The notes under the pieces are model-generated. The model saw only the letters and a list, made by a program, of their open reading frames with translations. It ran no database searches and was not told the origin of the DNA. Shown piece by piece: positions 6,037 to 60,671 of a stretch of DNA of 64,000 nucleotides (the first letter of the stretch is position 1; each line of letters opens with the position of its first letter). Both the position numbers and the translations under genes were made by a program. Source of the stretch: Gemmatimonadaceae bacterium (lineage in GTDB: Bacteria > Gemmatimonadota > Gemmatimonadetes > Gemmatimonadales > Gemmatimonadaceae); the NCBI GenBank assembly GCA_020852815.1, contig JADZAN010000028.1:62001-126000 (forward strand). Direction: 5' to 3'.

Positions 6037-6975
6037 CTACCCCCCACTCATCGCCGCACTCGCCGCCTTGTACGCCTCCGCATTCCAGAACGCCCGCCCG
6101 CACGCATCACCACCCTGCGCAATCGACTGCGCGTTGAACGTCATGCGCTGCGCGAACGCGTTGCCGTCCAACTGCACGGTGCGTCGCTCGCCACCCGACA
6201 GCTCCGACAACACGGTCACCCCCTTGGCCGCGTCGTAGCGCACGAAGACCACGGCCTCCGACCGCAGCTTGAGCATGAAGGCCGGCGTGAGCCCGCACGT
6301 CTTGGCACCATCGGCCGCGAGCGACTCGGCGCTGCGCGCAGAGGCGGGAGTTGGCGGCGTGGCGGCCTGCGACTGGATGGCCTTGAACTTGGCCGCGAGG
6401 GCCGCGGTGTCGGTGGTGGCGCCGGCGCCACCGGCAGCTGCAGCGCCCGACCCCTTGGCGGCATTGCGCCGAAAGGTGCGCTCGGTGATGGAGTCGGCCT
6501 GACAATCCATGATCTCACGACGATGCGCGATGACCTCGTCCTTGGTCCACTCGCGTTTCGTGCAGCCATAGTCGTCGGTGTACCCGGTGTCGGCGCTCTT
6601 CCCCTCCGGCGCGGGGGGGAGGAGCAGTTGCTGCGCGGCGAGCGAATCGCAGTCGTTGGAGGTGACCACGCCGCTCTGCGTCATGATGATGGTCGGAATG
6701 GCGGCGGTGCGCACCGACACGCGCCCGCTGGTGGGGTCGGTGGTGGAGATGGCGGGGCTGGAGAGGTTGGCCGGGCCCAGGTAGCCGGTCTTGATCCCTT
6801 CGAAGCAGGTGAGCCACTGGCCATCCTGCACCCGCAGCCGCCCGCGCACGGTGTACGTCTTCCCCTTGGCGGCCTTCTTGAGTTTGTCCATCAGTCCCTG
6901 CCCCTGCGCGGACTCGGCGAGAGTGACCAGCGCAACGGCGGACACCGCCAGGCGCAACGCGAACCAGCGTCTCAT
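6037..6975 (-). CDS. Secreted hypothetical protein
   Basis: A 312-residue protein with an N-terminal signal peptide (MRRWFALRL followed by a hydrophobic stretch and an AQG cleavage region), so it is exported. The start at 6973-6975 has GGAGG five bases upstream. An in-frame ATG 21 bases earlier lacks this. The mature part has a Lys-rich segment (MDKLKKAAKGK), several Cys residues, an Ala/Gly-rich linker near the middle and a C-terminal domain with two more Cys residues. No known family is recognised. It is monocistronic as far as can be seen, with the degenerate toxin locus downstream and a 200-bp gap upstream. Confidence 0.8.
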   Translation of the reverse strand: MRRWFALRLAVSAVALVTLAESAQGQGLMDKLKKAAKGKTYTVRGRLRVQDGQWLTCFEGIKTGYLGPANLSSPAISTTDPTSGRVSVRTAAIPTIIMTQSGVVTSNDCDSLAAQQLLLPPAPEGKSADTGYTDDYGCTKREWTKDEVIAHRREIMDCQADSITERTFRRNAAKGSGAAAAGGAGATTDTAALAAKFKAIQSQAATPPTPASARSAESLAADGAKTCGLTPAFMLKLRSEAVVFVRYDAAKGVTVLSELSGGERRTVQLDGNAFAQRMTFNAQSIAQGGDACGRAFWNAEAYKAASAAMSGG

Positions 6976-19816: not shown

Positions 19817-19870
19817 GCCGTAGCGTAAGCACCGGACACAAGCCGGCACAGGGCGCGCCGCGGCCGGCAG

Positions 19871-19930
19871 CGCAGCTCAGCGCAGCTCAGCGCAGCTCAG
19901 CGCAGCTCAGCTCAGCTTAGCTCAGCTCAC
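19871..19930. repeat. Tandem 10-bp repeat, unit CGCAGCTCAG
   Basis: Four exact copies of CGCAGCTCAG (19871-19910) are followed by degenerate CTCAG-type copies up to about 19930. The array sits between two minus-strand genes and runs into the stop codon of the HD-GYP regulator. Each unit contains AGCT and GCTCAGC-like inverted parts, so the RNA could fold into small hairpins. The spacing has no unique spacers, so it is not a CRISPR array. Confidence 0.9.
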
Positions 19931-21082
19931 CGTGCTGGCCGTCTCGACTTGCGTCGACATGGCCCGCAGCGGGCTCCGCTCGGCTTCCGACTGCGCCTCT
20001 TCGCCAAAGCGGTCGCGCGTGGCGAGGATCTGCGGGAGGGCGAGCATGAAGGCGTCGACGCAGTCGGGATCGAACTGCTTCTCGCGCCCCGTGCGGATCA
20101 GCGACAGCGCCTCGTCCAGCGACCAGGCGCGCTTGTACGGGCGGCTGGACATGAGGGCGTCGAAGACGTCGGCGACCGCCACGATGCGTCCCGCCAGCGG
20201 GATGTCGTCGCCCTGGCGCCCGTGCGGGTAGCCGGCGCCGTCGTAGCGTTCGTGGTGCGACAGGGCGATCTCGGCCGCGAGCTGCAACAGCTCCGACTGC
20301 GACCCGGACAGGATGCGATGCCCAATGACGGTGTGCTGCTGCATCATCGCGAACTCCTCGCCGCTGAAGCGTCCCGGCTTGAGGAGGATGTTGTCGGGGA
20401 TGCCGATCTTCCCCACGTCGTGCATGGGGCTGGCCAGGAAGATCTGCTCGCACTCGCCTTCGCCGTGCCCCAGCGCGCGCGCGATGTGGTCGCTGAAGTG
20501 CGCGATGCGCATGATGTGCGACCCGGTTTCGACGTCGCGGAACTCGGCGGCACGCGACAGGCGCAGGACGATCTCGCGCTCGCGCTCGACGATGGAGGCC
20601 GTTGCCAGGCGCACCTCGCGCGCGAGGTGATCCGAGCGGCGCTGCAGGGCGCGCTGGCCATCGCTCACGGCCAGCATGTTGCGCACGCGGGCGCGGACCT
20701 CCGGCGCGTCGAGCGGCTTGGTGAGGTAGTCGTTGGCGCCGGTCTCGAGCGCCTTGTAGCGGATGTCGCGATCTTCGAGCGCGGTGATCATCATCATCGG
20801 GACGTCGCGCGTGCGCGGATGCGCGCGCAGCGCGCGCAGCAGCGACAGCCCGTTCATCTCCGGCATTTCGTAGTCGGTGATGAGGACGTCGAGGTCGTGG
20901 GTGCGACACCATGCCAGCGCGGCCGACGGGTCGTCGAAGGTCTGCACCTCGACCGGCCCGACCGCCTCCACCAGGGTGCGCATCAGCGCCAGGCCGAAGG
21001 TATCGTCGTCGACGATGACCACCACTTGCGGCGCTTCGCGCGCCGGTGTGAGGCTGGACGGGCGAATGCCGGCTGCGCTCAT
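19922..21082 (-). CDS. HD-GYP response regulator, predicted cyclic-di-GMP phosphodiesterase
   Basis: A 386-residue two-domain regulator. Residues about 18-135 are a receiver domain, with the acidic VDDD cluster near 24-27, phospho-acceptor Asp70 in ITDYEMPEMNG, and the Lys in YLTKPLD. Residues about 170-365 form an HD-GYP domain, with the first His in ETGSHIMRIAHFSDHIA, HDVGKIGIP at 221-229, ALSHHERYDGAGYPHG, and VADVFDALMSSRPYK. All metal-binding motifs look intact, so it should hydrolyse cyclic di-GMP when phosphorylated. The ATG at 21080-21082 overlaps the TGA of the upstream hybrid kinase (ATGA), a strong sign that the kinase is its partner. Its stop codon lies at the start of a repeat array. 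Confidence 0.92.
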   Translation of the reverse strand: MSAAGIRPSSLTPAREAPQVVVIVDDDTFGLALMRTLVEAVGPVEVQTFDDPSAALAWCRTHDLDVLITDYEMPEMNGLSLLRALRAHPRTRDVPMMMITALEDRDIRYKALETGANDYLTKPLDAPEVRARVRNMLAVSDGQRALQRRSDHLAREVRLATASIVEREREIVLRLSRAAEFRDVETGSHIMRIAHFSDHIARALGHGEGECEQIFLASPMHDVGKIGIPDNILLKPGRFSGEEFAMMQQHTVIGHRILSGSQSELLQLAAEIALSHHERYDGAGYPHGRQGDDIPLAGRIVAVADVFDALMSSRPYKRAWSLDEALSLIRTGREKQFDPDCVDAFMLALPQILATRDRFGEEAQSEAERSPLRAMSTQVETASTVS

Positions 21083-49238: not shown

Positions 49239-50471
49239 ATGTCCACGCGATTCTCCCTCTCGCTCATGATGTTCCTCCAGTACTTCATCTGGGGGAGCTG
49301 GTTTGTCACGATGGGGACCTACCTGGGGCAGGGACTCCATTTCGAGGATGCGCAGATTGGCCTGGCGTACGGCGCCACGGCGATCGCCGCGCTGGTCTCC
49401 CCGTTCTTTGTCGGGATGGTGGCCGACCGCTTCTTCGCCTCGGAGAAGCTGCTGGCCATTTTGCATCTGGCGGGGGCGGCGCTGATGTACCTCGTGTCGA
49501 AGCAGACGACGTTCGGGACGTTCTATCCGCTCCTGATCGCCTACGCGCTGTGCTACATGCCCACGCTCTCGCTCACCAACTCCATCTCGTTCCACCACGT
49601 AAAGGATCCGGCGAACGACTTCCCGCTGATCCGCGTGCTGGGCACCATCGGCTGGATCGTGGCGGGAATCGTGATCGGGAAGGTGCTCAAGGCCGACGCC
49701 CTCGCCACGCCGATGCTCGTGGCCGCCGGCGCCTCGGCGTTGATGGGGCTCTTTGCCTTCCTGCTCCCGCACACGCCGCCCAAGGGGGCCGGGGCACCGT
49801 TCAGCATTCGCGACGCCTTCGGGCTCGATGCCTTGCAGCTCCTCAAGGATCGTGACTTCCTGGTCTTCACGTTAGGCTCGTTCCTGCTCTGCATCCCGCT
49901 GCAGTTCTACTACTCGTTCGCCAACCCCTTCCTCAACGAGATCGGCGCGCCGGAGCCGGCCTTCATCCAGACCTTCGGGCAGATGTCGGAGATCGGCTTC
50001 ATGCTCCTCCTCCCGTTCGCGCTCAAGCGCCTGGGAATCAAGGTCATCATGCTCACCGGGATGCTGGCGTGGGCGCTGCGCTACCTGGCGTTCAGCAATG
50101 GCGACGCGGGGAGCGGGATGTGGCTCATTTACGCCGGGATCCTGCTGCACGGCATCTGTTACGACTTCTTCTTCGTGAGCGGGCAGATCTACACCGACGA
50201 GAAGGCAGGACCAAAGATCCGCGCCGCGGCACAGGGCTTCATCAACTTCGTCACCAACGGGGTGGGCTACTTCATTGGCGCGTTTGTCTCGGGCGCCGTG
50301 GTGGGGAAGTACTCGACCCCCAACCCCTCGTGCGCGGACACCGCCACCGACTGTCTCAAGGTCGTGCACGACTGGCCGGGGATCTGGCTCGTCCCCTCCC
50401 TCGGCGCCGCCGTGGTGTTCGTGATCTTCCTCTTCCTGTTCCGCCCGCGTACGCAGGGCGCGGCCGCATAA
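49239..50471 (+). CDS. MFS permease, nucleoside:H+ symporter (NupG-like) family
   Basis: A 410-residue inner-membrane transporter with twelve hydrophobic segments. The N-terminal part ([24 protein letters not shown]) and the [22 protein letters not shown] loop match the NupG/XapB/YegT group. [13 protein letters not shown]-like and later [21 protein letters not shown] segments are also typical. In Bacteroidota and relatives these permeases often sit with DUF1080 and Gfo/Idh/MocA genes, where they more likely carry sugars or keto-sugars than nucleosides. The ATG at 49239 starts the first helix cleanly. Confidence 0.87.
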
Positions 50472-50520
50472 CAGCGCCGCCACGACCCCTCGTCCCCAGC
50501 CTTCGCTAGGTCAGGCTTCT

Positions 50521-50560
50521 CGTCCTCTCGTCTTCTCGTCTTCTCGTCTTCTCGTCTTCT
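50521..50560. repeat. Tandem octamer CGTCTTCT, five copies, directly before an ATG
   Basis: Five units of eight bases run from 50521 to 50560; four are exactly CGTCTTCT and the first is CGTCCTCT. One C separates the array from the ATG of the Gfo/Idh/MocA gene, so it fills the place of a Shine-Dalgarno site. The same octamer in the same phase lies before the second Gfo/Idh/MocA gene near 59.7 kb. Confidence 0.95.
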
Positions 50561-50561
50561 C

Positions 50562-51899
50562 ATGAGTGATTCCATCTCCCGTCGCGACTCCATCAAGCAG
50601 ACCGCGGCGAGCGTTGCCGCCTTCACCATCCTTCCGCGCCACGTGCTGGGCAAGGGACACCGCGCGCCGTCCGATACGCTCAACGTTGCGTGCATAGGCG
50701 TGGGCGGAATGGGGTTCAACGACGTGAAGGGGTTCGCGCACGAGAACGTGTATGCGCTCTGCGATGTCGACAGCCGCAACCTGGAGCGCGCCGCGCGCGC
50801 CTTCCCGCAGGCCAAGCTGTTCAAGGACTATCGCGAGCTGTTTGCCAGGGAGGGGGCGAACTTCGACGTGGCGGCGGTGTCGACCCCCGACCACTCGCAC
50901 GCGCCGGCCACGATGATGGCGCTCAAAGCGGGAAAGCATGTCTACACCCAGAAGCCGCTGGCGCGCACGGTGGGTGAAGTGCGCGCCCTCAAGGACGAGG
51001 CGGCGCGCCGGCCCAAGCAGTCGACGCAGATGGGGAACCAGGGGCATGCCGGCGAGGGGATCCGCCAGATCCGCGAGATGGTCGAGGCGGGGCTCATCGG
51101 GACGGTGCAGCGCGTGGAGTTCTGGACCAATCGCCCCATCTGGCCACAGGCCATCACGCGTCCCACCGAGATGCACTACGTCCCGCCAACGTTCGACTGG
51201 GATCTCTGGTTAGGCCCGGCCGCCGAGCGTCCGTTCCATCCGGGATACGCGCACTTCAACTGGCGCGGCTGGTGGGACTTCGGGACGGGGGCCATGGGGG
51301 ACATGGCGTGCCACATCATGGACGCCTCGTTCTGGGTGCTGGGGCTCAAGTACCCGACGCGCGTGATTCCCGAGTCGACCGGGCTCTTTGCCGAGACGGC
51401 TCCCAAGATGTCGCGCATCACGTACGAGTTCCCGGCCGCCAACGGACGTCCCGCCGTCACGCTCACCTGGCGCGACGGGAGCCTGTATCCGCCGCGCCCC
51501 GAGGAATGGGGGATGGCGCGCGACTGGGTCCCCGATGCCGACGGCGGGCAGTTGTGGATCGGCGACAAGGGGACGCTCATTGCGGGCACCTACGGGCAGA
51601 ACCCCGAGCTGTGCGATCCGGCCAGGCAGGCAGCACTGGTGAAGGCGATGCCCGCCAAGAAGTACGCGCGCACCGAAGGGGTCTACAAGGAGCTCACCAC
51701 GGCGATCCGGGGTGGTGGGCAGCCGGGTTCGAACTTCGCGGGTTATGCGGGGCCGCTGACCGAGATGATCGTGTTAGGCAACCTGGCGGTGCGCTCGGGG
51801 CGGACGATCGAGCTGGACCCGGCGACCGGCGTGCTCAAGACGGGGGGGATTCCGCCGGAGTGGATCATGCCGACGTATCGCAGCGGGTGGTCGTTGTAA
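50562..51899 (+). CDS. Tat-exported Gfo/Idh/MocA-family oxidoreductase
   Basis: A 445-residue NAD(P)-dependent oxidoreductase that probably acts on sugars or keto-sugars. It starts with a twin-arginine signal (SRRDSIKQTAASVAAF), so it is exported folded with its cofactor. The Rossmann part has VACIGVGGMGFNDVKGF, CDVDSRNLERAARAFP, VSTPDHSHAPATMMALKAGKHVYTQKP (catalytic Lys region). The C-terminal half has WWDFGTGAMGDMACHIMDASFWVLG. A polypyrimidine octamer array stands just before the ATG and no ribosome binding site is seen. It follows a MFS permease by 90 bases and is closed by a strong hairpin. Confidence 0.9.
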   Translation: MSDSISRRDSIKQTAASVAAFTILPRHVLGKGHRAPSDTLNVACIGVGGMGFNDVKGFAHENVYALCDVDSRNLERAARAFPQAKLFKDYRELFAREGANFDVAAVSTPDHSHAPATMMALKAGKHVYTQKPLARTVGEVRALKDEAARRPKQSTQMGNQGHAGEGIRQIREMVEAGLIGTVQRVEFWTNRPIWPQAITRPTEMHYVPPTFDWDLWLGPAAERPFHPGYAHFNWRGWWDFGTGAMGDMACHIMDASFWVLGLKYPTRVIPESTGLFAETAPKMSRITYEFPAANGRPAVTLTWRDGSLYPPRPEEWGMARDWVPDADGGQLWIGDKGTLIAGTYGQNPELCDPARQAALVKAMPAKKYARTEGVYKELTTAIRGGGQPGSNFAGYAGPLTEMIVLGNLAVRSGRTIELDPATGVLKTGGIPPEWIMPTYRSGWSL

Positions 51900-51927
51900 C
51901 GTCCCACCTGCGGTCGGAGGATGGCAG

Positions 51928-51963
51928 ACAAAGCGGGCGGCGCGAATGCGCCGCCCGCTTTGT
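51928..51963. terminator. Bidirectional terminator, 16-bp perfect stem
   Basis: ACAAAGCGGGCGGCGC (51928-51943) and its exact complement (51948-51963) flank the loop GAAT. It lies between the convergent Gfo/Idh/MocA and small lipoprotein genes, and overlaps the latter's stop codon by one base. AAA and TTT tracts flank the GC stem on both sides, so it can end transcripts in both directions. Confidence 0.92.
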
Positions 51964-52508
51964 TACTGCGCGACCGTCAACACGGTTGGCGTGGCCTCCA
52001 GCGGATCCGCGTTCTCCGCGCTGCTAGTGGCAGCGCTTCCACGAAGCGAGGCCGTCACCCGATACACGCCCGCGGGAACTATCGCGCCAGTGTCGTTGCG
52101 CCCGTCCCAGCGCACATCGAGCACCCAATCATTGCCCGGCTCGAGTGTGCGCGCGTGCGAGATGAGGACGACGGATGGCGACTTGAGCGAGTGCCAGACG
52201 ACTGCATTCGTGCTGTTGGATGTGATGACGACGTCGAGATCGGGAGTATCGGGGGTCGATCCGGAGTAGTTCAGGACGCGTCCCGATTGGCCGGCGTTGA
52301 TGACGCGCACGGTAAAGTTTGTCCCTTGTCCGACCTTGGCGGCATTTGGATGCGTGACCGTCAGGCGGACGGTGCCCTGGGCGGGGGGCGTGGGCGCCGC
52401 ACATCCATTGGCCGCCACCATCATCGCGAGAGCTGTGACCAGGGGGCGAATGGTGGTGCGACGGATTGTTGGTGTTGGGATGCGGGGTCGCATGGCGCCA
52501 ATATTCAC
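51963..52508 (-). CDS. Small lipoprotein with BsuPI-like beta domain
   Basis: A 181-residue lipoprotein with a lipobox (A-N-G-C, near residue 36) after a hydrophobic stretch (LVTALAMMVA). The mature part resembles the BsuPI intracellular-proteinase-inhibitor fold: VRVINAGQSGRVLNYSGSTPD, then VVWHSLKSPSVVL, then WVLDVRWDGRNDTG and VPAGVYRVTASLRG. It is probably an envelope protein; a protease-inhibitor role is only a possibility. A start five codons later is also possible. Confidence 0.7.
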   Translation of the reverse strand: MNIGAMRPRIPTPTIRRTTIRPLVTALAMMVAANGCAAPTPPAQGTVRLTVTHPNAAKVGQGTNFTVRVINAGQSGRVLNYSGSTPDTPDLDVVITSNSTNAVVWHSLKSPSVVLISHARTLEPGNDWVLDVRWDGRNDTGAIVPAGVYRVTASLRGSAATSSAENADPLEATPTVLTVAQ

Positions 52509-52534
52509 TTCCTACATCCCCACAACAACCACCC

Positions 52535-53548
52535 CTACGGCCGATCAGGATACGCAAACGGCGCCAGCCACACACGCCACTGGCGATCGATGTCCGACGG
52601 ATCAGCCGTAAAGGAGCGCGCCGCGGCGAGCGCGCCAATCACGTTCCCGCCGGTGAGCGCGGTGCGCACTACGTCCCTCATGAAGTCCGGGCCCTCGCGC
52701 TTGGAAATGAACTGGAGCAGTGAGTACGTCGCCGCCGCGTAGCGCATGCGTCCTTCCAGCGGCGGGAGCCTGCCACGCCCGAGGCGCCCACCCAGTCGCG
52801 CCGAGGCTTCGAGCGGCGGCTGTCCCCCGGCGTCGCCATCGCGCACGAAGGGCGCCAGGCATGCGGCGTCGCACGAGCCGGCGCTCCACATCTCCGCAAC
52901 CGACGGGAGCGAGTCGCGCTGCAGCGCCAGCTGCGTGAGCCATAGCTCGTGCACGGGCGACTCGGCCACCCCTTGCAGCAGCCCCAGGCGCAACCACGCC
53001 GGGACCGACTCGCGCGACATCCAGCCGAGGGTGGAGCTGTCTGTGGGGACCAGGTCGCGCACCAGACTTGCCATCCACTCGCGCGCGGTGGCCAGCACCA
53101 CCGCCGATGCCACGTGCATGGCCTCGGGGACTCGCGGGCGTCCACCGTCGTCGCGCCGCAGCGAGACCGGGAATGGCGCGAGCTGTCGCGCCCCCACGCG
53201 CACGGAGACCTGGACGGCGCGCTGGTCGCTCTCCAGGCGAACGACCGCCTCGGCGGGGCGCTCGCCAAAGAGGCGATCGTAGGCGCGCGCGGCGGCGTTG
53301 AGTTCGACGCGAGTCTCCTCCACCAGGTCGCGCCGATTGGAGAACAGAATGAAGCCGACGCCGCGGGTGGAGTCGGGGACCGGGAGGAGTTCGGTCTCGC
53401 GCAGCGACGGCGCTCTCCCGATGGGACCGCCGCCTATCGCGGTCGAGGGACCGGCCAGGCAGCCGGCGCTGACGAGGGGGGCGGCAATAACGGCGGCGGC
53501 AGCCAGCTTCGAGGCGGCGCGCCGCACGCGAGGATTGATGAGAGGCAC
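52535..53548 (-). CDS. Lipoprotein, possibly degenerate peptidase-MA-like
   Basis: A 337-residue lipoprotein (lipobox S-A-G-C near residue 26) beginning with GTG at 53546-53548. The layout recalls peptidase-MA-like proteins, in which HExxH is followed by a P-x-W-L-x-E-G segment. Here the matching places read LATAREWMASLV and SVPAWLRLGLLQGVAE, so the His/Glu zinc motif is missing. Near the end, YAAATYSLLQFISKREGPDFMRDVVRTALTGG matches the usual C-terminal helices. It is therefore either a dead protease homologue or a different family. It lies 26 bases upstream of the BsuPI-like gene in the same direction. The start lacks a good ribosome binding site. Confidence 0.68.
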   Translation of the reverse strand: MPLINPRVRRAASKLAAAAVIAAPLVSAGCLAGPSTAIGGGPIGRAPSLRETELLPVPDSTRGVGFILFSNRRDLVEETRVELNAAARAYDRLFGERPAEAVVRLESDQRAVQVSVRVGARQLAPFPVSLRRDDGGRPRVPEAMHVASAVVLATAREWMASLVRDLVPTDSSTLGWMSRESVPAWLRLGLLQGVAESPVHELWLTQLALQRDSLPSVAEMWSAGSCDAACLAPFVRDGDAGGQPPLEASARLGGRLGRGRLPPLEGRMRYAAATYSLLQFISKREGPDFMRDVVRTALTGGNVIGALAAARSFTADPSDIDRQWRVWLAPFAYPDRP

Positions 53549-53643
53549 GGGCGAGTGGCGGGAGGGAGCTGGCGCGATGCGCGCTCGATGGACGATAACC
53601 AGACACCGTCCGCCGGGTGTACCCGGCCGCGCCACTCGCTGCG

Positions 53644-54804
53644 CTATTTCCGCACGATGGCCTCGCGCACGGGCTGGCCGGCCCTCGGGTTCCGCGCGTT
53701 CCAGTCGTGGCCGAGTAGTGCGGCGACCGTGGCGGCCACCTGCGACTGGGTGACTGGGGTTCCGGCGGTGCGTTCGCCTAACGCCGGCGTGTCGGGGCCG
53801 ATGATCGCCATCCAGATGTGCTCGGCCCCGTCGACGTCCTGGCCGTGGTCGCGCCACGCGTCGGGGCCACTCCCGCGCCCGTGGTCGGTGGTGATGATGA
53901 AGGTCGTGGTGCCGCGGTACTGCGGCATGGCCTGCATCGTCTTCCACAGCTCGCCGATGAAGGCGTCCACCTGGTGCGCGGAGCGGAGGAGGAGGTCGTA
54001 CATCCCCGAGTGCGCCCATTCGTCGGTCTCGCCATAGCCAACGAAGAGGAGGCGCGGTTTGCGGCTGGCGACGAGTTCCCTGGCCGCCATCTGCATCGGT
54101 GCATCGAAGGCGTTGTTCTCCCACATGCGGACGGAGCTGCGGTACCACTCGTCGACGAACTGCATCCGCGCCGTCGGGGTGCGGACGCTGGCGAAGGGTT
54201 CATCCCATCCGTCGAGCACGGGGAAGCGGGCGCGATCGCGATTGAGGATGCGCCGGAAGGCATCCCACGTGGCCACGGCGGCGACGCGCCCCGCGAGTGA
54301 TGGTTGCGAGGCAAGCCACTCGAAGACCGTCTCGTTCGGGTTGGGCGGATAGTCGTTGGAGTCGATGCGCGGATCGAAGGCGCCGGTGAAGATCTCGTTG
54401 TAGCCGGGGTACGAGAACTTCATGGTGTTGGTGATGTGGGCGTCGCCGCCCTTGGTGCGATTGCCGTAGATGACGCCCTGCCTGGCGACCGTTCCCCACA
54501 GGAAGGGGAGGAGCGCCTCGCGGCGCGCATCCGGCGTGTCGCGCCAGAAGTCGCGGAGGAGGGCGGTGGTGTCGCGCACCCCACCGGGCTTGCGGCTGAC
54601 GAGGGCACGCTCGGCGCCGGTGAACACTTCCTGCCAGCGCAGCCCGTCGGTGACGATGAGGACGACATTGCGGGTGCGGGGCTGCGCCGCGGCGGCGCGC
54701 GCGTGAAGCGCGCACAGCGTGACAGACGCGGCGACGATGGCGATGAGGCGGGAGATGCGCATGCGAGCGATTGACCTGTCGATTGGCCTAAAGGGAAGCG
54801 GCAT
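53644..54804 (-). CDS. Secreted alkaline-phosphatase-superfamily protein (phosphodiesterase type)
   Basis: A 386-residue exported metallo-enzyme resembling nucleotide pyrophosphatases/phosphodiesterases. A signal peptide (RLIAIVAASVTLCALHARA) is followed by NVVLIVTDGLRWQEVFTGA, with metal-binding Asp and nucleophilic Thr. Then come YPGYNEIFTG, LLFVGYGETDEWAHSG (Asp and His ligands) and FIITTDHGRG (Asp-His). It may cleave phosphodiesters in the periplasm. The ATG at 54802-54804 overlaps the TGA of the upstream amidohydrolase gene (TGATG), so the pair is coupled; an internal ATG at 54762 would also keep the signal peptide. Confidence 0.85.
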   Translation of the reverse strand: MPLPFRPIDRSIARMRISRLIAIVAASVTLCALHARAAAAQPRTRNVVLIVTDGLRWQEVFTGAERALVSRKPGGVRDTTALLRDFWRDTPDARREALLPFLWGTVARQGVIYGNRTKGGDAHITNTMKFSYPGYNEIFTGAFDPRIDSNDYPPNPNETVFEWLASQPSLAGRVAAVATWDAFRRILNRDRARFPVLDGWDEPFASVRTPTARMQFVDEWYRSSVRMWENNAFDAPMQMAARELVASRKPRLLFVGYGETDEWAHSGMYDLLLRSAHQVDAFIGELWKTMQAMPQYRGTTTFIITTDHGRGSGPDAWRDHGQDVDGAEHIWMAIIGPDTPALGERTAGTPVTQSQVAATVAALLGHDWNARNPRAGQPVREAIVRK

Positions 54805-56270
54805 CAGAAGAGCCCCACCTTCCCCTTCACCGAGGCAATGAGTTTCTGCGGATCGTAGCCCACGCCCTGCCGGAAGACCAACTCGACGTTGCGCACGTCG
54901 CCGATGCGCGCCGACGGGTCGCCGTTGATCACGACGAGATCGGCCTGCTTGCCGACGGTGAGGGAGCCGGTGAGTGCGGCACGCCCAAGGTAGGTGGCGC
55001 CATTGAGCGTCCCGACCTTGATGGCCTCCACCGGTGAGAAGCCCGCCTCGACCAGGAGTTCGAGCGCACGCTGGTTGGAGTAGCCGGCAACCACCCCACC
55101 GCCACCGGTGGGGTCCGTGCCCACGACGAGCAGCCCGCCGGCGCGCGCGAAGGCGACCTCCATCGCCATCCCCTTGGGGAGGGCAGTGGCGTAGATGCTG
55201 CGCGGGGCCTTGGCCAGGTTGGCCTGCATCTGCTCGAACTGCTCGCGCAGCTGCGGCGTGAGGACGTCGATCCCCGGCGGCATGGGACGGTTGGGGGCGA
55301 AGGTCTCGAAGACGGTCATCGTCGAGGTGATCGCCACCTTCCGCTTCACCAGCTCGGCCACCAGCGCGGTGAACTCGGGCGAGGTGGGCTCCAGCGCCAT
55401 GAGCGACGGGATCCCGCCCTGCCGCGGGCACTCATCCGGCTTCTTGTCGGCGACGAAGTCGGTCGAGGCGAGGAAGCCGTGTTCGAGGTCGTCGATGCCT
55501 AACGCCGCGGCCTCGCGGTAGGTGACCGAGCACAGGTGCCCGGTGACCTTCATCCCGCGCTTGTGCGCCTCGGCGATGGCGGCGCCCAGGACGTCGCGGC
55601 GAATCTGCATGTAGGCCTTGAACGACGTCGCCCCCTGGTCGGCCCACCAGTTCACGAAGCGGCGTGCCTCGTTGGGCGTCTCGAGCGATCGCATCTGCCC
55701 AAAGGGATTGGCGCCATTCAGATAGGGCGCGGTGGCGTCGATCCACGGCCCCGGCTTGTCGCCGCGGGCGATGGCGCGCGCGATGTTCAGCTCACCGTAG
55801 CCGTTCATGTTGCCGCCGGTGCGCATCGACGTGACGCCGCCCGCCAGGTAGAGGCGCGAGAACGACTCGGTCACGTTGCCGTACACCCCGGGACCGGTGG
55901 GATAGAACAGGTGCTCGTGCACCATCACCAGCCCCGGGATGACCGACTTCCCTGTCATGTCGCGCACCAGCGCCCCGCTGGGGATGGGGGTCGAGGCGCT
56001 GGCCCCGAGCGCGACGATCTTCCCATCGCGGATGACGAGCGTCTGAGCGTCGCGCGCCGGCGCACCGGTGCCATCGATCACGCGCACGTTGGTTAGGGCG
56101 AGGAGCGACGTGTCGACGGCGACGTACTGGCGCGTGTTGGCGGAGAGCGTTGGGCGCTGGGCGAGTGCCACGCCGGCAGGAGCACACGGCATGACTGCGG
56201 CCAGCGTGAGCGGCGCGATCAGCGCGCGCAGGGCAAAGGGCGATTGGGAGCGCGAGGTGATTCGAGGCAT
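54804..56270 (-). CDS. Secreted amidohydrolase, imidazolonepropionase/prolidase-like
   Basis: A 488-residue exported amidohydrolase, signal peptide ending near VALAQ. The entry strand is LALTNVRVIDGTGAPARDAQTLVIRDGKI, the first metal motif VIPGLVMVHEHLFY (HxH), then MKVTGHLC and DLEHGF for further His ligands. GTDPTGGGG holds the catalytic Asp, and the C-terminal end is GSLTVGKQADLVVINGDP. It probably hydrolyses a cyclic amide or dipeptide. Its stop overlaps the start of the phosphatase-superfamily gene. Upstream is a 13-bp tandem repeat array. Confidence 0.88.
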   Translation of the reverse strand: MPRITSRSQSPFALRALIAPLTLAAVMPCAPAGVALAQRPTLSANTRQYVAVDTSLLALTNVRVIDGTGAPARDAQTLVIRDGKIVALGASASTPIPSGALVRDMTGKSVIPGLVMVHEHLFYPTGPGVYGNVTESFSRLYLAGGVTSMRTGGNMNGYGELNIARAIARGDKPGPWIDATAPYLNGANPFGQMRSLETPNEARRFVNWWADQGATSFKAYMQIRRDVLGAAIAEAHKRGMKVTGHLCSVTYREAAALGIDDLEHGFLASTDFVADKKPDECPRQGGIPSLMALEPTSPEFTALVAELVKRKVAITSTMTVFETFAPNRPMPPGIDVLTPQLREQFEQMQANLAKAPRSIYATALPKGMAMEVAFARAGGLLVVGTDPTGGGGVVAGYSNQRALELLVEAGFSPVEAIKVGTLNGATYLGRAALTGSLTVGKQADLVVINGDPSARIGDVRNVELVFRQGVGYDPQKLIASVKGKVGLF

Positions 56271-56341
56271 GAGGGGATGCGTGGGGGACGGTGCGAGCGC
56301 ACGCGAGACGTTATCGCTCCCCCACGGTCACGGTCAAACCC

Positions 56342-56443
56342 GGCGCGCAACTACCGCGCGCGACTGCGGCGCGCACCTACCGCGCGCACCTACCGCGCGC
56401 ACCTACCGCGCGCACCTGCCGCGCGCGACTGCGGCGCGCACGG
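56342..56443. repeat. Tandem 13-bp repeat, unit ACCTACCGCGCGC
   Basis: About seven units. The core is three exact copies of ACCTACCGCGCGC followed by ACCTGCCGCGCGC, flanked by variants such as GACTGCGGCGCGC that occur on both sides. It fills the gap between the amidohydrolase gene and the DUF3568 lipoprotein gene. The GCGCGC blocks are self-complementary, so the array can form hairpins or slip. There are no unique spacers. Confidence 0.92.
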
Positions 56444-56464
56444 GTCGCGCCCCTCCGCCGATCG

Positions 56465-56860
56465 CTACCTGGCCAGCATCCCGTTCAGGATCGTCTTGGC
56501 GAGTTCCTTGTCGTAGTCGACGGCGTTCTTCCTGGCGATGACTTCGACCTTCGTCGTGGCCTCTGTGTCGCGCTCGAGCTCGACCGTCACATCCTGCTCG
56601 CCCTTCTTCCCCAGCAGGCGGCGCTTGCGGCCGTTGTCCTCGATGCTGCGCCCGGTCTCGGCGACGCCGTTCTGGCCGAACGAGGTGACCGCGCGATCGA
56701 ACACCTGGTCCACGGTCCCCCCAACTTCGGACGAGGCACCGCGGTTGGTGTACGCGATGGCGCCGGCGGCGCCCGCCCCCGCGGCCGCGAGAAAGCAGCC
56801 GCTGAGGGCGATAGGTGTGCTGGCCAGGACGAGTCGAAGGGCGATGAGGCGGGGACGCAT
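56465..56860 (-). CDS. DUF3568-type small lipoprotein
   Basis: A 131-residue lipoprotein: basic start MRPRLIALRL, lipobox L-S-G-C, then FLAAAGAGAAGAIAYTNRGA, a glycine-zipper-like hydrophobic stretch common in DUF3568. The rest has RSIEDNGRKRRLLGKKGEQDVTVELERD and KTILNGMLAR at the end, a small alpha/beta fold. The start at 56858-56860 has GGAG seven bases upstream. Function unknown, outer envelope expected. Confidence 0.8.
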   Translation of the reverse strand: MRPRLIALRLVLASTPIALSGCFLAAAGAGAAGAIAYTNRGASSEVGGTVDQVFDRAVTSFGQNGVAETGRSIEDNGRKRRLLGKKGEQDVTVELERDTEATTKVEVIARKNAVDYDKELAKTILNGMLAR

Positions 56861-56976
56861 ACACGGCTCCATGGGTGAGGGGTTCCCCTTCGACATACCC
56901 CATGGCCGCATGGGCGTGCCCGGTTGGCGAGGCGTTAGGCGGCCCCGGCCATTGGAGCCCGGCTCGGCACCGCGAG

Positions 56977-58434
56977 CTACGGTGCGTCCAGGTGCAGGGC
57001 GAGGGTCGAGAGCCGCAGCGGACCCAGCGTGGACGCCAGCGTGAGCCGGAACCGATCGGCGCGCGCGGTTTCGAGGTGCGCTAACCATGTGTAGCCGATG
57101 GTGGTGCCACGCGCGGCCTCGCGCCAGCGGCCATCCTCCTGGAGCGACAGCGACCAGCGTTCCACCACCTGCCCCAGGGCGATCGGTTCCTGCAATCGCA
57201 ACACGTTGCATCTCACGGGACGAGGGAGGACGAGTTCGATCGTCGCCTCGGTCGCGCCGTCGGGGGCGGTCCACCAGCGTGCGCCATCGCCGCTCACGAC
57301 GGCGCCGGCGTCATGCCCCCCGGCGCGCACCTGCCCGCCGCGTGCGAGGTCGCGCGAGAGCATGGCGCGCCGCCGCGCCCCAAACGCGGCCAGCGCGCGT
57401 GCATCCGCCGAGTGCAAGAGCCCGTCGCGCGTGGGCGGAAGGTTGAGCAGGAGCTTGCTGTTGCGCCCCACCGACGTGAAGTAGAGTTCCATCAGGTTGT
57501 CGGCGGAGCGAACCTTGTCGTCCTCGGCGGGGTGCCAGAACCATCCGGGGCGAATGGAGACGTCGGTCTCGCCGGGGCGCCAGACGCTGCCATGGGGATC
57601 GCCGCGCTGCAGCAACTCGCCGACGCCCGGCGCATCGTAGCCCGCATAGGGGACGCTCGCCGGGTCGATCGTGCTCCAGCACGTCTCGCCGGCGACCCCC
57701 TTCTCGTTGCCGATCCAGCGCACGTCGGGGCCGGCATCGGAGAACATGACGGCGCCGGGTTGCAGCCGGCGGACCAGGGCGTGAATGCGCGGCCAATCAT
57801 AGGCCTGGCGCTTCCCGTTGGGTCCCTCGCCATTGGCGCCATCGAACCAGACTTCGGCCACCGGCCCGTACTGCGTGAGGAGTTCCTCCAACTGTGCGCA
57901 GTAGAAGTCCATGTAGCCCGCCCCGCTCCCGTAGCTGGGCTCGTGCCGGTCCCACGGCGAGAGATAGACTCCGAGCTTGAGGCCATCGGCGCGGCAGGCG
58001 TCGGCCACCTCGCGCACCACATCGCCCTTCCCGTCGCGCCACGGCGACGATGCAACCGAGTGGTTGGTGCGCCTGGACGGCCAGAGGCAGAAGCCGTCGT
58101 GGTGCTTGGCGGTGAGGATCAGCGACCCGAAGCCCGCCTCGCGCGCCACGCGGGTCCAGGCGCGCGCGTCGAAGCGCGACGGGTTGAAGATCGACGGCGA
58201 TTCCGTGCCGTCGCCCCACTCCTTGTCGGTGAAGGTGTTGACCGTGAAGTGGGTGAAGAGGGAGAGCTCCTCGCGCTGCCAGGCGAGCTGCGCCGGTGTG
58301 GGGACCGGACGGGCGGCGCGCGACGCGGCGCCGACAGGCGCAACGCGCGCACGAGCGCCACGGTGCAGGGCCCCGGTGCCAAGCGCGGCCGCGCCCGCGG
58401 CACCCGCGGTGATGAGGAAGTCGCGCCGATCCAT
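56977..58434 (-). CDS. Tat-exported GH29 alpha-L-fucosidase
   Basis: A 485-residue glycoside hydrolase. A twin-arginine signal (MDRRDFLITAGAAGAAALG) begins it. The GH29 domain has LSLFTHFTVNTFTDKEWGDG, LILTAKHHDGFCLWPS, LKLGVYLSPWDRH and VAEVWFDGANGEG, where Asp is the nucleophile. FTSVGRNSKLLLNLPPTRDG ends the core, and the last 120 residues look like a beta-sandwich (ATIELVLPRPVRCNVLRLQEPI), as found with carbohydrate-binding modules. It should release fucose from glycans or plant polymers. Ten bases separate it from the upstream Gfo/Idh/MocA gene, so they are likely co-transcribed. Confidence 0.92.
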   Translation of the reverse strand: MDRRDFLITAGAAGAAALGTGALHRGARARVAPVGAASRAARPVPTPAQLAWQREELSLFTHFTVNTFTDKEWGDGTESPSIFNPSRFDARAWTRVAREAGFGSLILTAKHHDGFCLWPSRRTNHSVASSPWRDGKGDVVREVADACRADGLKLGVYLSPWDRHEPSYGSGAGYMDFYCAQLEELLTQYGPVAEVWFDGANGEGPNGKRQAYDWPRIHALVRRLQPGAVMFSDAGPDVRWIGNEKGVAGETCWSTIDPASVPYAGYDAPGVGELLQRGDPHGSVWRPGETDVSIRPGWFWHPAEDDKVRSADNLMELYFTSVGRNSKLLLNLPPTRDGLLHSADARALAAFGARRRAMLSRDLARGGQVRAGGHDAGAVVSGDGARWWTAPDGATEATIELVLPRPVRCNVLRLQEPIALGQVVERWSLSLQEDGRWREAARGTTIGYTWLAHLETARADRFRLTLASTLGPLRLSTLALHLDAP

Positions 58435-58444
58435 CCGTGCGCCC

Positions 58445-59689
58445 CTACCCTTCCGCCGCCGGGTTCCACGCCCCGCGCGCCACCGCGGGGACAAACGCGT
58501 CGATGCCGCGCGGCGGGAAGGCGAGCGTGCGCCCCATCTCCGCGCTCTGGTACGCCGCCATGAGGATGCGCACCACGTCGATGCCGTCGTCGAAGGTGAG
58601 GCGCGGCTTCTCCTTTCCCAGGAAGGCGCGCACGAAGTGGCGGTTCTCGTCGGTGTAGCCATAGGCGTGGTACTCCTGCGGCACCACCGGCATGACCCCC
58701 TGCTCGGCGTTCTGCTTCTCCACCAGGTCCTCGCCCGCCTTTCCCGTCACCTGGCGCGAGAAGAAGAGCTGCAACCCGCTGTCGAGCGACGACCACTTCA
58801 TGGAGTACTCGGGGCCCAGCAGCTCGGCCGACAGCCGCAATCCGGCGCCGACGAACGACCACGACGTGCTGGCCTCGCCAATCACGCGATGCCCGTCGGC
58901 GGTCTCGAACTCGATGGTCATCGAGGCGAAGTCCTCGGACGGGGTGTTGCGATAGTCGACCGCCTTGCCGAAAGTCTGCTTGAGGTGCCTGGCGTACGGC
59001 GGGCGGCTCCACTTGAGCGAGGCGATGTGCGCGGTGATGCGCACCGGCTGCACGGTGCGGTACGACTCGCCCGGCTTGGTGAGGAGGTGCCGCACGACGA
59101 GCGCCGAGTGGCACATCATGTCGTTGAGGACCCCGCCCCCTTGCAGCTTCCCCTGCCAGAACCACGGTGTATGCGGTCCGCTGTGCTCTTCGGCGGCACG
59201 CGCGAGGTAGGGGCGCCCGGTGGTGGCGGCGCCGCGCGCCCAGAGCAGCGCATGCCCGGCCGACACGTGCGGCGCGAAGATCTGGTCCTCGAGATAGCCG
59301 TGCATGAGCCCGACCGACTCGACCAGCGCCTTCACCCGCTTGGCCTCGGCCACATTGCGCGCCAGCGGTTTTTCGCAGGCAATCCCCTTGAGCGTCCCTT
59401 TCCCGCGGGCGATGGCGTCGACGATTTCCTCGACGTTCTCGATGCGCGCGTGGTTGGGGCCGCAGAGCCAGATGGCGTCGATGGCCGGGTCGGCGACCAT
59501 GGCCGCAATGCTCTTGTAGGGGCGGGCGGCGCCGACGTCGAGCTCACGGGCCAGCGACGCGGCGCTGGCGGCGCTGCGATGGTTGGGGCTCCACACGCCG
59601 AGGACATCGGCGTCACGCACACCGCGCCATCCTTGGATGTGGAAGCGCGTGATGAAGCCGGAGCCTACGAAAGCCACGCCGAGGGACAT
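58445..59689 (-). CDS. Cytoplasmic Gfo/Idh/MocA-family oxidoreductase
   Basis: A 414-residue NAD(P)-dependent oxidoreductase. The start MSLGVAFVGSGFITRFHIQGW gives the Rossmann motif at once, so there is no signal peptide. Later come IDAIWLCGPNHARIENVEEIV and GIACEKPLARNVAEAKRV (catalytic Lys), then GGGVLNDMMCHSALVVRHLL with the active-site His. Next to the GH29 gene it may oxidise fucose or a related sugar. CGTCTTCT octamers lie just before the ATG in place of a ribosome binding site, and further upstream is a very C-rich tract. A longer frame upstream would encode a Pro/Ser run from these repeats and is unlikely to be used. Confidence 0.9.
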   Translation of the reverse strand: MSLGVAFVGSGFITRFHIQGWRGVRDADVLGVWSPNHRSAASAASLARELDVGAARPYKSIAAMVADPAIDAIWLCGPNHARIENVEEIVDAIARGKGTLKGIACEKPLARNVAEAKRVKALVESVGLMHGYLEDQIFAPHVSAGHALLWARGAATTGRPYLARAAEEHSGPHTPWFWQGKLQGGGVLNDMMCHSALVVRHLLTKPGESYRTVQPVRITAHIASLKWSRPPYARHLKQTFGKAVDYRNTPSEDFASMTIEFETADGHRVIGEASTSWSFVGAGLRLSAELLGPEYSMKWSSLDSGLQLFFSRQVTGKAGEDLVEKQNAEQGVMPVVPQEYHAYGYTDENRHFVRAFLGKEKPRLTFDDGIDVVRILMAAYQSAEMGRTLAFPPRGIDAFVPAVARGAWNPAAEG

Positions 59690-59692
59690 GAG

Positions 59693-59724
59693 AGAAGACG
59701 GGAAGACGAGAAGACGAGAAGACG
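59693..59724. repeat. Tandem octamer CGTCTTCT (minus strand), four copies, directly before an ATG
   Basis: Four eight-base units, three exact AGAAGACG (the complement of CGTCTTCT) and one GGAAGACG, sit three bases before the ATG of the second Gfo/Idh/MocA gene. Unit, phase and position match the array at 50521-50560 on the other strand. Confidence 0.95.
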
Positions 59725-59759: not shown

Positions 59760-60671
59760 CTATGGGGTGGCGGTGGGGGTGGTGCGGCGGATGGCTCGGC
59801 CGACGAGGATCGTGATGTTGTCGCGGCCGCCGCCATCGAGGGCGTCCTGCAGCAGCGCGTTGCACGCCTCGCGCGCCGAGGTCATGGCGAGGAGGCGATC
59901 GCGGATGCGCTCGTCGCTCACATGGCGGGTGAGGCCGTCGCTGCACAGCAGGTGCACCATCCCCCACTCGTTCTGTACACCGGTCACCACCGGCGTCGAT
60001 TGCTCGCCACCGATCGCGCTGGCCAGCACGTTGGAGAAGCGTGCGATCTTCTGGTCGGTGCGGGTCAGCACGCCCATGTCGATGAGTTCCTGCGCGATGG
60101 TCTGGTCGCGCGTGACCTGCGTGAGGACGCCGTCGCGCATGAAGTAGTAGCGCGAATCGCCCACCTGCAGCAGGTAGATTCGGGGCCAGACGCCCAGATA
60201 GAGCGTGAGCGTCGTCGCCATCCCCTTGCGCCCGGGAAGCGCAGCGCTGCGTGCGTTGAGCTCCTCGTGTACGCGCAACGCCGCCGCTTCCAGCGTGCGG
60301 CGGAAGGTCTCATCGTCGCCGGCATCGGCGGTGTAGAAGCACTGGGCACTGTCGCTCACATAGCGCGAGACGGCGTCGAGTGCGAAGCGCGACGCTTCCT
60401 CGCCGGCCATTCCGCCACCGACGCCATCGGCAACCATTGCCAGGAAGGCGAGGCGATCCGTTTCGCGCGTCGTCCCGCTGGTTTCGGGGAGCGACGTGAG
60501 GTGCACGCGCATCTGGCGGTGCAGCGAGGCCACCAGGAAGTGATCCTGGTTCTCCGGGCGCACCTTGCCGGGGTGCGTGAGGCCAAAGACGTCGATCTCG
60601 TCGTCGCGCGGCTTGCGGACGACGCCGAGTTCGATGGCGTGCTCCTCACTGGTCGCCATGGCCGTCTCCAT
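59760..60671 (-). CDS. PP2C-family serine/threonine protein phosphatase
   Basis: A 303-residue metal-dependent protein phosphatase, likely reversing a Hanks-type Ser/Thr kinase that is not in this window. Motifs in order: FGLTHPGKVRPENQDHF, LAFLAMVADGVGGGMAGEEAS (metal Asp), KGMATTLTLYLG, IYLLQVGDSRYYFMRDG, HLLCSDGLTRHVSDE and GGGRDNITILVGR (late Asp). All metal ligands appear present. The domain fills the whole protein; there is no membrane segment. Start either at 60671 or four codons later. The 18-base gap to the upstream serine hydrolase suggests one transcript. Confidence 0.92.
   Translation of the reverse strand: METAMATSEEHAIELGVVRKPRDDEIDVFGLTHPGKVRPENQDHFLVASLHRQMRVHLTSLPETSGTTRETDRLAFLAMVADGVGGGMAGEEASRFALDAVSRYVSDSAQCFYTADAGDDETFRRTLEAAALRVHEELNARSAALPGRKGMATTLTLYLGVWPRIYLLQVGDSRYYFMRDGVLTQVTRDQTIAQELIDMGVLTRTDQKIARFSNVLASAIGGEQSTPVVTGVQNEWGMVHLLCSDGLTRHVSDERIRDRLLAMTSAREACNALLQDALDGGGRDNITILVGRAIRRTTPTATP

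Follow-up and report, generated by a model that had tools for sequence, protein, structure and literature searches.

Repeats at gene borders have long been known from distant phyla, and no function has been assigned to them. The closest described examples are the GGGAATC and GGGGA(T/C)T heptamers of Xanthomonas and Nostoc, whose purine strand is the non-coding strand before open reading frames (ORFs) and the coding strand after them, with some arrays overlapping stop codons; the study left their function open and examined quadruplexes as the structure they most likely form (PMC4692102). In the Beggiatoaceae, TAACTGA heptamers lie directly before start codons that have no ribosome binding site; S1 is among the candidate readers, and MacGregor proposed that S1, Csp or Csr proteins bind these leaders (PMC4679880). 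Mycobacterial interspersed repetitive units (MIRUs), another class of dispersed repeat, insert at start codons (PMC12548453). The long simple sequence repeats, including the cyanobacterial STRR, are intergenic arrays with units of 5-11 nt, among which heptamers are the commonest (Mrazek 2007, as summarised in PMC4679880).

The arrays considered here were found in the genome of a member of the Gemmatimonadaceae. The window (the whole stretch of DNA that was analysed, 64,000 nucleotides in length) contains two tandem arrays of the octamer CGTCTTCT, each placed immediately before a gene. The relevant features are as follows.

50521..50560, + strand: octamer array 1, five units (CGTCCTCT followed by 4 x CGTCTTCT), then one C, then the ATG at 50562
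59693..59724, - strand: octamer array 2, four units (CGTCTTCT, CGTCTTCT, CGTCTTCC, CGTCTTCT), then CTC, then the ATG at 59689
50491..50520, + strand: decayed copy of a 30-bp unit, CGTC-CCCAGCCTTCGCTGGGGCAGGC-YTCT, directly 5' of array 1
50562..51899, + strand: Gfo/Idh/MocA oxidoreductase gene led by array 1 (Pfam PF01408; start backed by orthologues)
58445..59689, - strand: second Gfo/Idh/MocA oxidoreductase gene, led by array 2 (Pfam PF01408; start backed by orthologues)
49239..50471, + strand: nucleoside H+ symporter (MFS), upstream neighbour of array 1, its stop codon 49 nt before the array
59760..60671, - strand: PP2C-type protein phosphatase, upstream neighbour of array 2, its stop codon 35 nt before the array

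Array 1, with five units, stops 1 nt short of its ATG, and array 2, with four, stops 3 nt short of the other, as the original prediction had it. Its statement that the same octamer occupies both sites holds for the repeat and not for every unit, since unit 1 of array 1 and unit 3 of array 2 each have one T-to-C change. Both genes do belong to the Gfo/Idh/MocA family (PF01408 E-values of 1.4e-16 and 7e-17), the orthologues of two congeneric species align from the same ATG, which supports both start codons, and the leader of neither oxidoreductase contains a purine-rich Shine-Dalgarno-like stretch, again as predicted. The orthologue of the 58445..59689 gene in one of these species (G001) also has an octamer array at its start. 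When up to two mismatches were allowed, two-unit matches numbered 7 in the window, against 0.03 expected from shuffles.

To place these two arrays in context, the genome of the window (G000, a 5.38-Mb assembly) was compared with those of the other two species of its genus (G001 and G002) and of more distant relatives, with one genome per species. Exact two-unit matches number 183 in this genome and 347 and 242 in its two genus mates, and there are none in 57 further relatives, 33 of which represent other genera of the family; a reversed control pattern had no matches in the same searches of the three genus members and the 57 relatives. A scan of public genomes with a three-unit pattern returned, among named records, mainly metagenome genomes of Gemmatimonadetes or Gemmatimonadaceae and, outside the Gemmatimonadota, scattered records only. 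Dispersal of the octamer is genus-specific among the relatives checked.

Eighty arrays were collected from this genome by reading individual stretches, and genes were predicted with a purpose-built caller based on a periodic Markov model. Intergenic arrays account for 69 of the 80, with 29 facing a start codon and 40 facing the stop codon of a gene on the opposite strand; of the remaining 11, about five lie at the extreme end of a called gene, and the arrays of about four loci fall inside a predicted reading frame. In the three species pooled, the 3' end of the pyrimidine strand falls within 12 nt of a coding sequence (CDS) in 97 of 115 intergenic arrays, against 23.8 expected for random place and strand and a maximum of 40 in 20,000 simulations. 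The same is true of 57 of the 69 arrays in gaps of at least 120 nt (6.3 expected), in none of which does the opposite end of the array come within 12 nt of a CDS. The median distance from array to border is about 6 nt, and some stop codons share bases with the array (for example T|AG). Arrays were present in 97 of 504 intergenic regions of the three species, a figure that is not a frequency because stretches were often picked for their arrays. The octamer border pattern is real, strongly non-random and not peculiar to oxidoreductases, for the bordered genes are functionally mixed and often housekeeping (atpD, ychF, rpiB, L25, sdhB, lepA, sucD, fliQ and flgG), and the association with the Gfo/Idh/MocA family suggested by the window is coincidental. 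A genome-wide tie between octamer and gene borders, as opposed to random scatter, is thus borne out, while an element specific to start codons is not, the stops of opposing genes being abutted at least as often. Because the border is either a start codon or, equally often, the stop of an opposing gene, the arrays become pyrimidine 5' leaders (CGUCUUCU) or purine 3' trailers (AGAAGACG) in the mRNA. Exceptions to this polarity are a few arrays in short operon gaps that have the purine strand 5' of a start.

It had also been proposed that the arrays replace the ribosome binding site of the two oxidoreductase genes. When 4-nt Shine-Dalgarno (SD) matches at -18 to -4 were compared with a control window, array-led genes showed no excess (14% versus 14%), in agreement with the idea that their starts lack SD sites. 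Array-free lead genes are, however, mostly without such sites too (21% versus 11%), tight-operon genes reach 54% versus 19%, and the class Gemmatimonadetes, with SD sequences in 22% of genes, is among the lowest (PMC10783764). The missing SD site is therefore usual for the host and not a product of the array. The 16S rRNA, from which the anti-SD end would be read, was searched for in this assembly and not found. An rpsA-matching S1-type sequence is present, in pieces at contig ends. No clear -10 peak lies upstream of the leader arrays. A leaderless origin of the leaders was considered and rejected, since the TANNNT peak 5-9 nt before the start is small in non-array lead genes (16 of 302) and there is none in array flanks.

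The polarity of the arrays has a counterpart in predicted RNA structure. When the array, the spacer and 45 nt of CDS were folded as found and with the array reversed in place, the reversal took start contexts from -13.6 to -19.6 kcal/mol, the native form being the weaker fold in 20 of 24 genes, and stop (3') contexts from -17.7 to -23.0 kcal/mol, with the native form weaker in 28 of 37. The strand that is found would leave the message open, which would provide one symmetric reason for polarity at both gene ends. The relation between folding and polarity is nevertheless a correlation, and it may be that the array does no more than follow the strand bias of gene edges.

The arrays themselves are built to a narrow plan. 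In all three species the end phase is fixed, with CT followed by whole units, most often ending at CGTCYTCT; before the four-unit arrays, C stands at -2 in 47 of 48 and T at -1 in 46 of 48. Exactly four units are present in 48 of 79 arrays (61%) of this genome, while counts in G001 are broader (2 to 26, mode 4) and in G002 are most often 3-4. Upstream of many arrays in this genome lies the 30-bp variant unit, in which the octamer is split by a palindromic 22-bp hairpin (CGTC-CCCAGCCTTCGCTGGGGCAGGC-YTCT). Copying around the genome is likely, because many loci have the same unit and the same end phase, and in this respect the suggestion of a mobile mini-repeat appears well founded. A preferred C/T pattern among the four units, sought as the fingerprint of one master copy, was not evident. 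The four-unit mode and fixed phase are not predicted by plain slippage plus tolerance.

At about 80% coding DNA identity between the three species, the position of an array is conserved while its copy number and its unit, CGTCTTCT or the heptamer CCCGTCT, turn over. Where a border has an array in G000, an octamer or heptamer array is present in a relative in 20 of 30 cases, versus 2 of 53 for borders without (Fisher p 6e-10), a comparison for which array-bearing genes or arrays served as queries to obtain the stretches of the relatives, and neighbouring borders as controls. The atpD gene carries 8 octamers, 5 octamers or 3 heptamers (CCCGTCT) depending on the species, and similar exchanges of unit or number occur at ychF, L25, lepA and the first gene of the window. 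At several loci the promoter or terminator between two arrays can be recognized by eye as ancestral, and the arrays therefore lie in the orders promoter, array, start and stop, array, terminator-like hairpin. At sdhA-sdhB, G001 has GTACAAGTGAACGTC, in which stop and start overlap, whereas in G000 an array separates two ATGAACG copies; this array reads as an insertion with a 7-bp duplication. The complement of the octamer contains GAAGAC and the heptamer array contains CGTCTC, both of which are recognition sequences of type IIS restriction enzymes, possibly by coincidence.

Set beside the described systems, the octamer most resembles the Xanthomonas and Nostoc heptamers (PMC4692102). Both are dispersed, intergenic, short-period arrays, preferably of about four units, whose pyrimidine strand runs into the gene at both of its ends, and both are mostly kept between the same genes, mixed and housekeeping, across species, two of them in the published case, while length and sequence change. 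The octamer differs in having a unit of 8 rather than 7 and no G runs, so that it is not quadruplex-capable, in its tighter border distance (a median of about 6 nt here versus 50-nt bins there), and in the 7/8-nt unit swap at orthologous borders, the fixed end phase and the SD-poor host. The TAACTGA repeats of marine Beggiatoaceae, cyanobacteria and Bacteroidetes (PMC4679880) resemble it in part, lying a few nucleotides from the starts of mixed and essential genes that mostly have no SD site; they are, however, heptamers of another sequence with stop codons in the forward frames, and in the Beggiatoaceae genome they are found mainly at starts, in contrast to the 29 starts and 40 opposing stops of the octamer. 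A dispersed repeat at start/stop junctions also recalls the MIRUs (PMC12548453), with sdhA-sdhB as one clear octamer case of a duplicated ATGA-type junction. A MIRU has a small ORF coupled by a 4-nt overlap, whereas (CGTCTTCT)n, read directly, contains no ATG, GTG or TTG and no stop codon on either strand, in any frame. With the long simple sequence repeats and STRR the octamer shares intergenic, short-unit arrays, and it differs from them in its unit and in a near-absolute border rule and polarity. Within the polar gene-border repeats of the Xanthomonas/Nostoc type, the octamer is a variant that obeys the border rule, lacks the G runs of a quadruplex and exchanges with a heptamer that has them. 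In three species, the same borders thus carry interchangeable 7- and 8-nt units, one quadruplex-capable and the other not. Position, polarity and little RNA structure are thereby set apart as the features that seem to count, and the exact unit and the quadruplex as those that do not.

The reading that we favour, with a probability of roughly 0.55, is that the arrays represent a dispersed minisatellite cassette that an SD-poor lineage tolerates, or uses as unstructured, untranslated spacer in leaders and trailers. The cassette would have the form CT(CGTCYTCT)n, where n is mostly 4 in the genome of the window, and would occupy untranslated sequence right against the CDS, placed either before the start, with the pyrimidine strand in the mRNA, or just after the stop, with the purine strand in the mRNA. 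It probably spread by copying, whether by transposition or by template switching, and would have been kept only where it is harmless or helpful, namely between a stop and its terminator or in the interval from transcription start to start codon, where it would act as an unstructured spacer. In leaders, the unstructured C/U-rich tract may permit SD-independent initiation, probably via protein S1 and a readily accessible start codon, as would suit a lineage in which SD sites are little used. The leaders of atpD, ychF, rpiB, L25 and others, which carry no SD site, are ready test cases for initiation on C/U-rich leaders in a low-SD phylum. A purely translational role is insufficient, since stops are bordered as often as starts, and at least the 3' arrays need another reason. 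The reading is also weakened by the purine-strand exceptions in short operon gaps, the arrays within reading frames, the sharp four-unit mode with its fixed phase, and the lack of a clear -10 peak before leader arrays.

The main rival to the unstructured-spacer reading is a selfish mini-repeat that inserts at stop/start junctions as MIRUs insert at start codons (PMC12548453), brings the host no benefit and owes its polarity to insertion chemistry or target. The fixed end phase, the sharp four-unit size, the stop codons that share bases with the array and the ATGAACG duplication flanking the sdhA-sdhB insert all speak for such an element; we nevertheless consider it unlikely as the whole account, since positions are mostly conserved at about 80% coding identity, so that few insertions are recent, units of period 7 and 8 swap at one position, which does not resemble a single insertion event, and there is no common target sequence beyond the border and a duplication at one locus only. 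A specific regulon would invoke a reader of the CGTC that recurs every 8 nt, such as S1, a cold-shock-like or other RNA- or DNA-binding protein or a small RNA, which co-controls the array-led genes; purine 3' arrays by terminators could themselves act as small RNAs pairing with pyrimidine leaders. The exact complementarity of leader and trailer arrays, the trailer arrays that at several loci separate the stop codon from terminator-like hairpins and the S1, Csp or Csr proposal for TAACTGA leaders (PMC4679880) are in keeping with this idea, which is made quite improbable by the mixed, often housekeeping functions of the genes, by orthologues that exchange the octamer for a heptamer of other sequence and spacing, and by another genus of the family that has many different period-7 units in the same layout.

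That expression might vary with copy number through slippage was part of the original prediction, and near-perfect tandem repeats whose number differs between orthologues (8 versus 5 octamers at atpD) are what such a phase-variable switch would look like. The sharp mode of four in this genome, the essential and housekeeping genes concerned, the arrays that lie behind stop codons and the untranslated location, with no obvious effect on reading frame or promoter spacing, tell against it and leave it very improbable. Scarcely plausible, finally, is a G-quadruplex or i-motif element as proposed for the Xanthomonas and Nostoc heptamers: the polarity rule is the same as for the published repeats (PMC4692102), and the heptamer GGGAGAC at some orthologous borders does place a GGG every 7 nt, yet the octamer, whose purine strand has no GGG run, is found at these very borders with an identical polarity and likewise prefers four units. 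For the octamer itself the quadruplex was rejected, with 0 GGG runs in four octamers versus 5 in four heptamers plus CCC.

Arrays with other units extend beyond the genus. The heptamer CCCGTCT was found in some other genera, and in the best-sampled related genus (G007) 45 of 48 intergenic tandem arrays have a period of 7, with many different units and dozens of arrays at gene borders. Beside a right-hand CDS the arrays are rich in pyrimidines (11 of 13 above 0.6, none below 0.4), and beside a left-hand CDS they are rich in purines (13 of 18 below 0.4, one above 0.6), in a count that, like the octamer analysis, mixes the reading directions of the neighbouring genes. One could imagine a general process in the Gemmatimonadaceae that writes arrays of 7- or 8-nt period at borders, with a fixed polarity and a unit particular to the lineage or locus, so that many genes receive pyrimidine leaders and purine trailers as a main non-SD initiation signal, perhaps with pairing between messages; we hold this to be improbable.

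In some intergenic regions of G007 (L284-L288, L307-L316) the left arm is an inverted copy of the right arm, and in a 150-nt intergenic region of G014 (L290) an 11-mer array, AGAGAGACAAC, follows one gene and recurs farther along in inverted form. Measured locus by locus, inverted matches between left and right arms reach 12% in G022 versus 1.2% in the null, 7% in G000 versus 1.9% (null maximum 7.1%) and 5% in G002 versus 2.9%, so that such matching is not established for the genus of the window. An intergenic region at 6464-6786 of stretch L062 holds a repeat of the form AATTGGGGTCAGAGTCAGCGAACCAAATTCTCG together with inverted copies, TGACTCTGACCCCAA.

The window and its surroundings contain further repeats. 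A decamer array, CAGCGCAGCT x 6.2 (window 19868-19929), abuts the stop codon of the gene at 19922-21082 (- strand) and is a border array with a different unit, and a 13-mer array, GCGCGCACCTACC x 7.6 (window 56343-56441), is intergenic and lies beside the stop codon of the gene at 56465-56896 (- strand). Upstream of the window (G000:C28:41107-47623), a 36-bp repeat, GCTTCAATGGAGCCCCGCTCTAACGAGCGAGGAAGG, recurs in 85 exact copies at a spacing of ~72-75 bp and forms a CRISPR-like array.
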